Shown: positions 25,633-31,833 of the stretch, in pieces
How the letters are laid out: every line of letters starts with the position of its first letter
Position numbering within the stretch: position 1 is the stretch's first letter
Origin: Chamaesiphon minutus PCC 6605
GTDB lineage: Bacteria; Cyanobacteriota; Cyanobacteriia; Cyanobacteriales; Chamaesiphonaceae
NCBI RefSeq assembly: GCF_000317145.1
Contig: NC_019697.1
Coordinates: 4,476,886-4,540,885 of the forward strand
Length of the DNA stretch: 64,000 nucleotides
Reading direction: 5' to 3'
Translations under genes and position numbers: made by a program
The notes under the pieces: generated by a model
What the model was told of the DNA's origin: nothing
The model's database searches: none
What the model saw: the letters and a program-made list of their open reading frames with translations, nothing else

Positions 25633-27018
25633 TTAACCTGGTAACTTACTGCGCCATTGAGACATCGCAGCTTGAGTTGTGTTGTAGTTTGTAGCATCTT
25701 TTGGTACCATCTTGGCCGTATCGATGGCGAGTTGCCAATACTGCCGATCGGCATAACCCTTAGCGATTTGATAGATTTCCTGCGACCATTGCTCGATCGA
25801 CTGTTGAATTTCCGCTGCTGCCGCTGGGGTGGTCGGTTGGATATTGCGTGCGGCTAAAATCGCCTGGTAGCGAGACGTTGCATCACCAGGCTTGACAAAT
25901 AGCCTAGCTTGTGATAAGTCTGTCGATGTACTCCCGACTGTGGGTGTCTGGGAATCATTTCCATTGCCTGCTACAGATGTAACGATCTGCGGATCGAGAT
26001 CGTTTATTCTCGATTGGTTGAAAGCATAAATCCCGCCGAGAGCGGCTACCAGCAGTGTCAATAGTAAGCTGATTTTAGCCCAGTGTGGTGCGTCCTGCGA
26101 CTTTGGTGCTGAATGAGATCGCTTGACGATTGCCCCAGTCCCGATTGCCGCTGGGGAAACTAGTGTCGCCATCGGAGTCGGCGGTGTATAAGGTGCATAG
26201 GTATCATCCCGATCCAATGCAGCCGACACTGGCGGTGTATACACTACTTCTGGGATGGTAGCTGAGATCGACGATTGGGTAGTAGCCGAAAATACTGGTC
26301 GATAGCTAGAGACTCCCGTCGGGATAATCGCCATCGGCGTCTGCAAAGGCTTCCAATGATGTTCGCTCAATTCGGCCAATCGAGTCGTTAAATAGGTATC
26401 GATTGTCTCTAAATTAAGATCGGGGTGATAATTTAGCGTCTCTAGCAGAGCTGTGGTAAACAGTCCGTGCCCCAATCCCGCATCTTCGTGCGAAACTTCA
26501 TGACTTTGACAAGATAGAAAAGTGGGAATTTGATACTCTTGGGCGAGTTTGGCAGTAGCTTGCCCGATGCCGCCGCCGAGAGCGAGATGTTGGGCGTGAT
26601 TGGCATCGAGAAACACCAGCGCATTGACGCCAATATCGCGAAACTGCTGGTAGAGTTGGCGGATGGAGATACAAGTATTGGCCAGGTCGTCGGTTTTGCC
26701 ATCGATCGGGAGCAGATAATCTTCACCCTCAAAACTGACGCCACAACCGCTAAAAAAGAACCATAACAAGTCGCCATGCTGGAGTTTATCCCAAGACCAC
26801 TGTTTCAGCCAGCGGTTGATATTCTCCCGATTGGGATAGGTAGATTTTGTCCCCGATTGGGCTGAAGTATCGGTCAAAAGCAAACATTGCTGCGAATCCC
26901 AGCCAGCCGCATCGATAAAAAACTGCTCGATCGCCACAGCATCTGCCACTCCATAGCTTAACGTCGGCAAGAACTGGTATCGATTAATCCCGATTGAAAT
27001 ACACGTCTGGTTTGCCAT
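25633..27018 (-). CDS. Caspase-fold protein lacking the catalytic His-Cys dyad
   Basis: A 461-residue orthocaspase-like protein. The p20 fold is recognisable: ISIGINRYQFLPTLSYGVADA at the start, LLLTDTSA, then FFFSGCGVSFEGEDYLLPIDG and ALVFLDANHAQ. In active caspases the second motif reads SGHG and the third LDACHSG. Here the His is Cys92 and the Cys is Asn140, so proteolysis by the usual mechanism is not expected. A membrane helix (about 310-330, ISLLLTLLVAALGGIYAF) separates it from a C-terminal helical domain that resembles part of a TPR array. It is probably a binding or regulatory pseudoenzyme. Confidence 0.87.
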   Translation of the reverse strand: MANQTCISIGINRYQFLPTLSYGVADAVAIEQFFIDAAGWDSQQCLLLTDTSAQSGTKSTYPNRENINRWLKQWSWDKLQHGDLLWFFFSGCGVSFEGEDYLLPIDGKTDDLANTCISIRQLYQQFRDIGVNALVFLDANHAQHLALGGGIGQATAKLAQEYQIPTFLSCQSHEVSHEDAGLGHGLFTTALLETLNYHPDLNLETIDTYLTTRLAELSEHHWKPLQTPMAIIPTGVSSYRPVFSATTQSSISATIPEVVYTPPVSAALDRDDTYAPYTPPTPMATLVSPAAIGTGAIVKRSHSAPKSQDAPHWAKISLLLTLLVAALGGIYAFNQSRINDLDPQIVTSVAGNGNDSQTPTVGSTSTDLSQARLFVKPGDATSRYQAILAARNIQPTTPAAAAEIQQSIEQWSQEIYQIAKGYADRQYWQLAIDTAKMVPKDATNYNTTQAAMSQWRSKLPG

Positions 27019-27457: not shown

Positions 27458-28018
27458 TCACTCTGACGGCTGTCCTAGCGCGGTGACATCTAATAAAAAG
27501 ATCGATGGTCGATCGGCCAACTCCAGGGACATCGCACTGACACAGTGAATATTTCGATACTGTTGATAAATAGCGGGTAAGGGTTGAAATGCCGAGATTT
27601 GAAGCGATTGGATGCTCGGTGGTGAATCGATCGGCAGTCCGATGAGCCGATCTGGTTCGGGCTGAAGAATTAATAAATATCTCACCTCAGCCATCGATGT
27701 AGGTGCTACCACAGTAGCTTTTTTAGGTCGATCGACTGGCAGGATCTGCTGCGCCTTGCCAAATATCTGATGCCCGACATCGATAACTACTAGCTCTCGA
27801 CCTTGATAAGCAATTAAACTCACTCCCGTACCTTGAGGATCGCCATAAAGCCTGTGCCCGAGTCGTTCCCCAGCAGCATCGAGTGTTATCGCTTTGTGAA
27901 CGCGATCGAGCGGGATGGCAAAAGTCTCCCCCTCTAGCTTAAAGGTAATCAAGCGTTGGGTTGCTTCTGTTTGTCGAGCTGCCAATCGCCGCGATCGCAG
28001 CGGAGAATAAATAGCCAT
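27458..28018 (-). CDS. CheW-like domain protein
   Basis: A 186-residue protein formed by one CheW domain: LITFKLEGETFAIPLDRVHKAI, then VSLIAYQGRELVVIDVG and LLILQPEPDRLIGLPID, with the final strand FLLDVTALG. CheW couples chemoreceptors to a CheA kinase; in cyanobacteria such modules steer type IV pilus motility. No receptor, CheA or CheY gene is adjacent, so it may be an auxiliary adaptor. The N terminus has about 20 basic residues before the fold (RSRRLAARQ). An inverted-end element lies directly upstream. Confidence 0.85.
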   Translation of the reverse strand: MAIYSPLRSRRLAARQTEATQRLITFKLEGETFAIPLDRVHKAITLDAAGERLGHRLYGDPQGTGVSLIAYQGRELVVIDVGHQIFGKAQQILPVDRPKKATVVAPTSMAEVRYLLILQPEPDRLIGLPIDSPPSIQSLQISAFQPLPAIYQQYRNIHCVSAMSLELADRPSIFLLDVTALGQPSE

Positions 28019-30195: not shown

Positions 30196-31833
30196 TTATC
30201 TAAGTCCAATTCTCTGAATTGCCCATTCCTGATTTCGATCGTCTTTGACCAAAAAATAACGAATTCTTTGAGGTGAAACTCCTCCCGCTCTCATCACATA
30301 CTCGATCGTGACATCAACCACTGCATCTCGATCTGTTTGTGAAACTAAGTTAGTCTGCTGAATTTCGACATTTGCAACCTGCTTTGCCCACCAGTCCAAA
30401 AAAGAATCATACCCATTGGGATGTACGGATTTATTATTTTGCAGGTCTGTAGGAAGAGCATTCCAGGCACCAGTATAGTTTCTGTTGTTAATTTTAGAGT
30501 AGTAATCTCGAACGGTAGCTCTTGGATCTCGATCGGTATTGTCAATGGTATTTTTGCTAGTGGACGCATTGCTACGCTCAATATTTTCAGTAGTATTTTC
30601 TCTACTAGCTACATTACTACGATCGGTATTTTCAGTAATATTTTCTCTAATAGCTATATTATTACGCTCAATATTTTCAGTAGTATTTTCTCTACTAGAT
30701 GCCGTTCTACGATCATTTGTAGAATTAGAAGTGCTTGTAATCTTAGGAGTGCTATTTATTACTGGATTGTTATTAGCGACAGTTTGCTGGCTATTATTTT
30801 TGTTCTCACTAGACTCATTTCGACTAGAATTATGACCTAGCACTAAAAAGCCGCCGATTAATCCACCACCCACGATCGCAGCAGTCAGTGCTATTATTAA
30901 CGGTCTAGCTTGGCTATTCCCATTAGTAGTAGTTGTCGCTATTGGAACGTATACCGTTTTTTCACGATCGTCTGCAATTGGAATAGGAGATACAACGGGT
31001 GGTTGCGGAAATGGTGATGAGGAAATACTTAAGTCCTCTAACATTTGCCGCGCATTCTGATATCGATCGCGTGATAAAGGCTGAATCGATTTAGTTAGTA
31101 TCTCTACCAACTGCGGTGATATATTCGGAGCTAATGACTGCCAATTTAGATTTCCACGATCGGGATCGGTTTCAATTTCTGTGGGCATCTTACCAGTTAG
31201 GAGGTAGAGAGCTGTTAAACCTAATGCGTAAATATCGCTAGCAAACATCGGACGACCAGACATTTGTTCGAGCGGCATAAACCCTGGTGTCCCAATCAAG
31301 ATCGACTGAGCAGTATCCCCTGATGCTGTTATCGTCGTACTCATTATCTCCTTGACCGCACCAAAGTCGATGAGAATCGGCTTATTATCGCGATGGCGCA
31401 GCATGATATTATCAGGCTTAATGTCCCGGTGAACTATTCCCCGATCGTGGACATAGCAAAGTGTGGGCAGAATATCGGTGAGTAATTGTCTAACTTGAAT
31501 TTCAGTAAATAGTCCCCGCGTTTGTACTCGCTCATTTAAGGTTTGACCATCTACATACTCTTGGATGAGATAAAACTCTCCCCGTTCGACAAAATAAGCA
31601 TAAAGACTGGGAACTTTGCCGTTACTGTCCTTGCCCAAATGCTCTAAAGTAATTGCTTCTTGCTTAAATCGATCTTTGATTAGCTGCTGTACTTTCGGAT
31701 CTGCTGATGTCGGCGTTAACTGTTTGACCACACAATAAGGCTGGGAAGGCATCAATGTATTTGTTGCTAAATACGTAGTACCAAAACCACCTTCACCTAG
31801 TTTCCTGATAATTGGGTATAAACTTAACGACAT
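30196..31833 (-). CDS. Membrane serine/threonine protein kinase with repeat linker and C-terminal extracytoplasmic domain
   Basis: A 545-residue Hanks-type kinase. Residues about 10-275 form the kinase domain: glycine loop GEGGFGTTY, catalytic HRDIKPDN, DFG in LIDFGAVK, and the GTPGFMPLEQ activation-segment end. A membrane helix (about 318-340, IIALTAAIVGGGLIGGFLVLG) follows. Then comes a linker with four 15-residue repeats of the type SRENTTENIERSN, and a C-terminal domain of about 110 residues (ATVRDYYSKINNRNYTGAWNAL...) that looks like an NTF2-like fold and should lie outside the cytoplasm. The kinase probably senses an external signal; targets are unknown. Unlike many cyanobacterial relatives, it has no N-terminal zinc ribbon. 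Confidence 0.9.
   Translation of the reverse strand: MSLSLYPIIRKLGEGGFGTTYLATNTLMPSQPYCVVKQLTPTSADPKVQQLIKDRFKQEAITLEHLGKDSNGKVPSLYAYFVERGEFYLIQEYVDGQTLNERVQTRGLFTEIQVRQLLTDILPTLCYVHDRGIVHRDIKPDNIMLRHRDNKPILIDFGAVKEIMSTTITASGDTAQSILIGTPGFMPLEQMSGRPMFASDIYALGLTALYLLTGKMPTEIETDPDRGNLNWQSLAPNISPQLVEILTKSIQPLSRDRYQNARQMLEDLSISSSPFPQPPVVSPIPIADDREKTVYVPIATTTTNGNSQARPLIIALTAAIVGGGLIGGFLVLGHNSSRNESSENKNNSQQTVANNNPVINSTPKITSTSNSTNDRRTASSRENTTENIERNNIAIRENITENTDRSNVASRENTTENIERSNASTSKNTIDNTDRDPRATVRDYYSKINNRNYTGAWNALPTDLQNNKSVHPNGYDSFLDWWAKQVANVEIQQTNLVSQTDRDAVVDVTIEYVMRAGGVSPQRIRYFLVKDDRNQEWAIQRIGLR
30530..30709. repeat. Four 45-bp tandem repeats inside the kinase gene
   Basis: Copies begin at 30530, 30575, 30620 and 30665, each encoding 15 residues of the linker. 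The length keeps the frame, so changes in copy number would only shorten or lengthen the linker. Confidence 0.85.

Follow-up and report, generated by a model that had tools for sequence, protein, structure and literature searches.

The gene at positions 25633..27018, on the minus strand of the window (the whole 64,000-nucleotide stretch of Chamaesiphon minutus DNA analysed here), encodes a conserved pseudo-orthocaspase that is orthologous to the YN forms and under purifying selection. Both residues of the catalytic dyad are replaced, Cys92 standing in the position of the catalytic His and Asn140 in that of the catalytic Cys. Taken as a whole, the protein is probably a non-cutting, membrane-anchored adaptor whose p20 domain binds a basic partner.

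Domain organization and fold

The open frame starts with ATG and encodes 461 aa, exactly as delimited by an earlier sequence-only reading, to which the strand is now added. All parts named below lie on the minus strand. The p20 caspase-like domain (residues 1-236; 26311..27018) is defined by a sub-cut-off match to NF047832, by a profile, by the structure model and by dN/dS. It is followed by a linker with several prolines (residues 237-310; 26089..26310), of low model confidence and with dN/dS of 0.15-0.40, then by a single membrane helix (residues 316-334; 26017..26073; mean hydropathy 1.95) and a C-terminal block of helical repeats (residues 367-461; 25636..25920), in which pLDDT is 82-95 over residues 371-460. 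Codon 92 (TGT, Cys; 26743..26745) and codon 140 (AAT, Asn; 26599..26601), both assigned from alignment and codons, lie in the contexts WFFFSGCGVSF and LVFLDANHAQ, respectively. A promoter scan gave a count at chance and a terminator scan a count near chance.

Pfam, Peptidase_C14 included, finds no family at E ≤ 1 anywhere on the protein; C-terminal to p20 come the linker, the membrane helix and the helical repeat. In NCBIfam, NF047832 (caspase, EACC1-associated type) matches residues 7-215 at E 9.4e-9, with a score of 35 bits where the cut-off is 140; judged from this one sequence, the relation to caspases is thus real but weak. The three homologues scanned (L015, L023 and L028; 37-50% identity), which are longer, all exceed the Pfam Peptidase_C14 cut-off. 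A p20 profile built from 26 sequences reaches solved metacaspases (lowest E 1.5e-7) and MALT1 (E of about 2e-4 to 9e-4), and aligns its own SGyG with the SGHG of the solved metacaspases.

Two structure models were built, both with eight rows from one genus. The full-length model is poor (mean pLDDT 52, and <50 over residues 219-366), and the p20-only model is modest (mean pLDDT 61, pTM 0.65). Metacaspases and MALT1 lead the Foldseek matches to the latter, with TM-scores ≤0.52 among the matches listed. In VIA-align 2 a SAVED-CHAT chain comes top (Z 11.9), tied with MALT1 (7paw_A; Z 11.4 over 187 residues, rmsd 4.2), and the metacaspases follow at Z of about 10-11, rmsd being 3.7-4.9 for these. 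Among the matches listed, with Z from 9.3 to 11.9, are also a peptide asparaginyl ligase, a chain of GPI transamidase and chains of mTORC1/Raptor complexes. The p20 model supports the fold class. As the Foldseek TM-scores are low and the VIA matches mixed, closer kinship is not supported. The p20 caspase-hemoglobinase domain of a pseudo-orthocaspase is therefore recognized by NF047832, Foldseek and VIA, with Pfam C14 unmatched. With the replacement of dyad residues by C92 and N140, the His-Cys dyad of an active orthocaspase is absent, and the caspase-fold pseudoenzyme proposed from the sequence is borne out by NCBIfam, profile and model matches alike.

The proposal that a membrane helix is kept also stands. 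The helix spans residues 312-334 in the full-length model and about 316-334 by hydropathy, and a hydrophobic helix lies C-terminal to p20 in all 28 aligned family members, one of which (L024) has one extra marginal hydrophobic stretch besides. Lysine and arginine are more numerous before the helix than after it in 8/8 Chamaesiphon rows and mixed in the other 20; this weak charge bias suggests that p20 is on the cytoplasmic side. Most aligned homologues from other genera have a longer C-terminus, and longer homologues match the helical repeat block more than once. The repeat weakly resembles other open reading frames (ORFs) of the same genome (best E 0.015). Two of these, L003:103-2007(-) and L006:1042-3081(+), with E of 0.015 and 0.165, are long and by eye show helical repeats at the C-terminus as well as a membrane helix.

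Loss of the catalytic dyad and its history

Alignment with active orthocaspases had been proposed as a check, and in an alignment with HC sequences from other cyanobacteria (SGHG ... LDACR) columns 92 and 140 are those of the catalytic His and Cys. A second proposed check concerned conservation among orthologues. Nine genomes of the genus were matched, C. minutus included, one of them by a contig (L043, the same as L014) that starts at residue 195, and Cys92 and Asn140 are present in all eight that cover the site, with codon 92 read as TGT (n=7) or TGC (n=1) and codon 140 as AAT (n=8). The eight further Chamaesiphon loci hold orthologues at 58-92% identity, one truncated; the nearest named relative, Chamaesiphon polymorphus CCALA 037, has the one that is 92% identical. 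L015, a homologue from the same taxonomic family but a different genus, has TAT at codon 92 and AAT at codon 140.

Between the window sequence and the seven other full Chamaesiphon sequences, dN/dS is 0.05-0.09 in p20 and looser in the linkers (0.15-0.40, and 0.42-0.69 where defined), all of these ratios being rough because synonymous sites are near saturation in all but the nearest pair. With both catalytic residues lost and Pfam without a match, the gene might be taken for one in decay or for an assembly artefact, but the open frame and both residues are common to all eight testable genomes of the genus and the p20 ratio is that of a constrained domain. This explanation is refuted unless the orthologues have been mis-assembled alike, and it deserves almost no credence. 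Given the shared residues and the low p20 dN/dS, the gene is not an error and is not in decay; a pseudogene is thereby ruled out, as is a sequencing error at either codon, which the sequence-only reading had allowed for.

The wider family was surveyed in 386 genomes, an even draw of the phylum Cyanobacteriota. The p20 profile at E ≤ 1e-80 gives 70 YN-tier genomes, the next match being at 4.8e-73. The YN tier itself comprises 87 distinct rows of at least 270 bits in a local search, from YN-tier genomes and relatives with loci, and 20 of the listed lower-scoring profile matches were fetched. A maximum-likelihood tree was made from 107 distinct p20 rows, with identical sequences merged, L043 and its copy L014 dropped, and the root at the midpoint for display. 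The dyads of these 107 rows are YN (73), HC (13), CN (10), YS and YR (3 each), HN and YC (2 each) and YQ (1). Within the 87 YN-tier rows, position 92 is Tyr in 76, Cys in 10 and His in one, and position 140 is Asn in 84 and Ser in three.

The Chamaesiphon rows nest inside the YN rows, as sister to L015 (YN, same family), with support of 100/98. The CN dyad arose by three separate Tyr-to-Cys changes, all forced by well-supported branches. L109, one of the two CN rows from outside Chamaesiphon, has a long branch and an unsure placement. From the YN-tier counts and the position in the tree, Asn140 predates the genus, Tyr92 is the usual residue of the clade, and Cys92 is late and appears in three lineages. 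In Chamaesiphon the step from Tyr92 to Cys, read from the tree, takes one base change. The sequence-only reading thus had the right residue and column at 92, but a direct change from His to Cys is better replaced by one from His through Tyr to Cys; its change from Cys to Asn at 140 stands as given, with AAT in the catalytic Cys column and Asn the rule across the tier.

Membership of the YN clade is one of descent and not of dyad type, as position 92 is Cys here and in the other seven testable Chamaesiphon rows. The protein lies among the YN rows in the tree, has Asn at the Cys position and carries the Asp pair of the basic pocket. The putative pocket residues are codon 26 (26941..26943), Asp in 87/87 YN-tier rows, and codon 138 (26605..26607), Asp in 86/87. 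Their equivalence to the published pocket residues is our inference, and the pair may be conserved merely for the fold.

Some other rows have unusual dyads. One YN-tier row (L091, genome G291) has His92 with Asn140 (HN), the His being either a relic or a reversion from Tyr. Diverged relatives in two families (L120, L122 and L123 in f10; L125 and L129 in f8) have the dyads YC, YR and YQ, further drift of dead active sites.

Cysteine at the His position is unusual, as the sequence-only reading had remarked, but it is already reported: the text of PMC8283722 places CN among 16 rarer dyads, and that of PMC7475262 mentions one sequence with C for H. The CN entry of PMC8283722, identical in its dyad letters, may or may not be the Chamaesiphon protein, the organism being unnamed in the text. 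The name Chamaesiphon is absent from the main text of PMC6426788, PMC8283722, PMC7475262 and PMC3501461, and a literature search for Chamaesiphon with caspase found nothing related. The protein is therefore a YN clade member whose rare dyad is already in print, and is of a kind already known.

A further cysteine is conserved along with Cys92. Cys116 (26671-26673, minus strand) is invariant in 8/8 Chamaesiphon and occurs in 8/87 YN-tier rows, all of them from this genus; the other 79 have Gly, Ala or once Met. Since Cys92 sits in the former active site and is equally invariant, the protein could still be an enzyme, one that cleaves, ligates or performs thiol chemistry by means of Cys92 or some other residue. 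Against this, Tyr is usual at position 92 (76/87), so that the YN family needs no thiol there; both of the CN rows from outside Chamaesiphon are without C116 (Gly and Ala instead); and no His is invariant among the 28 aligned members, though H220 is kept in 75/87 YN-tier rows. An active protease, through C92 or through another dyad, is disfavoured, and continued enzyme activity of any such kind is highly improbable. C92 and C116 are most simply neutral, their invariance giving some room for a thiol role, and C92 is most likely a tolerated replacement of Tyr with no chemistry of its own.

Chamaesiphon is unicellular. Its host type can be set against that expected of the clade: YN forms are restricted to multicellular nitrogen fixers according to the text of PMC6426788, and the YN clade is described in that of PMC8283722 as filamentous and heterocytous. 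In the C. minutus genome the best nifH match scores 219.9 bits, below the family cut-off of 394.35, and does not fit the description of a nitrogen-fixing host. In the 386-genome draw nifH was called at E ≤ 1e-110 in 59 genomes, 58 of them over the cut-off, and it is over-represented among the YN-tier genomes (39/70, against 20/316 of the others) in a two-by-two test that ignores shared ancestry. The remaining 31 of the 70 lack it, so that nitrogen fixation is not a condition for YN, against the rule given in the text of PMC6426788; the published tie of the clade to nitrogen fixation is weakened.

Neighbouring genes and a head-to-head exported protein

A CheW-like gene (27458..28018, minus strand; PF01584, E 1.9e-8) lies just upstream of the pseudo-orthocaspase gene on the same strand, and is found there in all eight Chamaesiphon loci examined, namely the window and L036-L042, with L043 left out. 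As all these loci are from one genus, the adjacency may be simple shared descent, and its relevance is unproven. On the other side of the pseudo-orthocaspase gene a glycosyltransferase gene is common to L036 only, and a dehydratase gene farther on to L036, L039, L040 and L042, some loci being short. Elsewhere in the window (30196-31833, minus strand) is an ORF that by eye resembles a Ser/Thr protein kinase; it may contain a membrane helix, and a TTENIERSN-like motif recurs in it.

Across the YN tier, a divergent gene lies head to head with the p20 gene, directly upstream of it, in 46/70 genomes from 7/15 families. The adjacency is seen in 36/42 genomes of f33, in all those of f38 (3/3), f15 (2/2), f42 (2/2), f22 (1/1) and f45 (1/1), in 1/2 of f5, in 0/10 of f2 and in 0/7 across f1, f4, f9, f10, f29, f30 and f34. 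The product (e.g. L073:3206-3841(-) and L112:5029-7194(+)) has by eye a hydrophobic leader and, in an alignment designated A5, a conserved core; it is apparently exported, and is uncharacterised. Many A5 matches carry stops inside the matched stretch, which is expected because A5 was made from stop-to-stop frames and holds some untranslated leader. The L073 protein has no match in Pfam or NCBIfam at E ≤ 0.1, and the L112 protein none in Pfam. A literature search on orthocaspase gene neighbourhoods or a divergent gene gave nothing relevant among the matches listed.

Counting homologues at E ≤ 1e-6, adjacent or not, the partner is present in 56/70 YN-tier genomes and absent from 14/70, and 24/80 partner-bearing genomes are without a YN-tier p20. 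The C. minutus genome has no homologue at E ≤ 1e-6, a single-sequence search giving one match at E 0.047. The change to C92 is not explained by loss of the partner, since in G051 and G210, the two other genomes with CN, the partner gene does lie next to the p20 gene; a tie between the two events is ruled out.

The frequency of the pair, in 46 genomes and seven families, could mean that p20 works with the exported protein as a trans-envelope signalling unit, and that Chamaesiphon, where the CheW-like gene is the constant neighbour, uses a replacement or has kept a remnant role next to CheW. We regard this as unlikely, if worth pursuing: the partner is not adjacent in 24/70 genomes, including all 10 of family f2; no homologue is found in 14/70, C. 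minutus among them; 24/80 partner genomes lack the p20; a single family supplies 36 of the 46 pairs; and the CheW adjacency is known from one genus only. A fuller version of the same idea is speculative, and we rate it as quite unlikely. In it, the YN pseudo-orthocaspases would be the cytoplasmic half of a trans-envelope system: the dead caspase domain would read basic peptides, one membrane helix would join it to outer helical repeats, and these would meet the exported protein encoded head to head. Chamaesiphon would have dropped the partner and kept the receptor next to CheW, and its two cysteines, C116 and the C92 of the lost active site, could act together as a thiol switch.

Proposed function and significance

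The best-fitting role is that of a binding protein or scaffold tethered to the membrane. Having lost both catalytic residues, p20 would cut nothing. The acidic pocket, which accommodates Arg or Lys in true orthocaspases, would be kept in this probably cytoplasmic domain and would bind a basic peptide or protein partner without cleavage. The linker and single membrane helix would tether p20; across the membrane, the helical repeat would dock to a component of the envelope or lumen.

The sequence-only reading had suggested a decoy as one of two possible roles, and an inactive relative might partner an active orthocaspase of its own cell as a dominant-negative form, in the manner of inactive-active caspase pairs. 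The text of PMC6426788 cites cases in which inactive relatives of caspases work together with active ones, and reasons as well that in prokaryotes the active forms are most likely not regulated by pseudo forms. In the C. minutus genome searched (6.76 Mb, 3 contigs), NF047832 at E ≤ 1 matches, besides the pseudo-orthocaspase, only L001:1258-2544(+) and, at E 0.73, a stretch of 23 positions. L001 is the sole match of Pfam C14 at E ≤ 0.001, and the pseudo-orthocaspase gene that of the p20 profile at E ≤ 1e-10. A second orthocaspase of the same type was thus not found by any of the three at these thresholds, which makes a decoy unlikely. L001 is caspase-like and keeps His and Cys (GHG, QCYAG), with Pfam C14 at E 3.1e-4, near the cut-off. 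Because its N-terminus is by eye a signal-like stretch, L001 may be on the other side of the membrane. A decoy of an active cytoplasmic orthocaspase is disfavoured when the sole other caspase-like protein starts in this way, and we consider the decoy role very unlikely.

Related forms are described in print. The text of PMC6426788 describes the YS and YN pseudo-orthocaspases as without an identifiable C-terminal domain, with both pocket Asp conserved, and sets out the role of the acidic pocket in basic specificity; that of PMC8283722 describes 37 pseudo-orthocaspases with membrane helices, generally after p20, and names WP_010997820.1 as the YN protein of Nostoc PCC 7120. The Chamaesiphon protein resembles the YN pseudo-orthocaspases in clade, in Asn at the Cys position, in the basic-pocket Asp pair, in having no recognized C-terminal Pfam domain and in a membrane helix, usually after p20 as in the text of PMC8283722; it differs in having Cys for Tyr at 92 and in a host without nifH over the cut-off.

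Two other proteins may be likened to it by description, not by sequence. SyOC of Synechocystis PCC 6803, in the account of PMC7889975, is also a pseudo-orthocaspase and has itself been studied by knock-out, the mutant tolerating oxidative stress better; unlike the Chamaesiphon protein it has a Tyr-Gly dyad (PMC6426788, Table 1). TbMC4 of T. brucei likewise has a caspase fold without the dyad and, by the text of PMC6426788, has a cellular role, but it is a eukaryotic metacaspase with a YS dyad.

For the YN clade itself, the text of PMC6426788, PMC8283722 and PMC7475262 reports no experimentally shown function. The Chamaesiphon protein illustrates how a caspase-fold pseudoenzyme drifts at its dead site, with three changes of Tyr to Cys on the tree and strong selection on the remainder of the domain, and from this it follows that the fold is retained and not catalysis. 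The head-to-head exported partner offers a testable lead on the function of the clade, and is the part most worth following.
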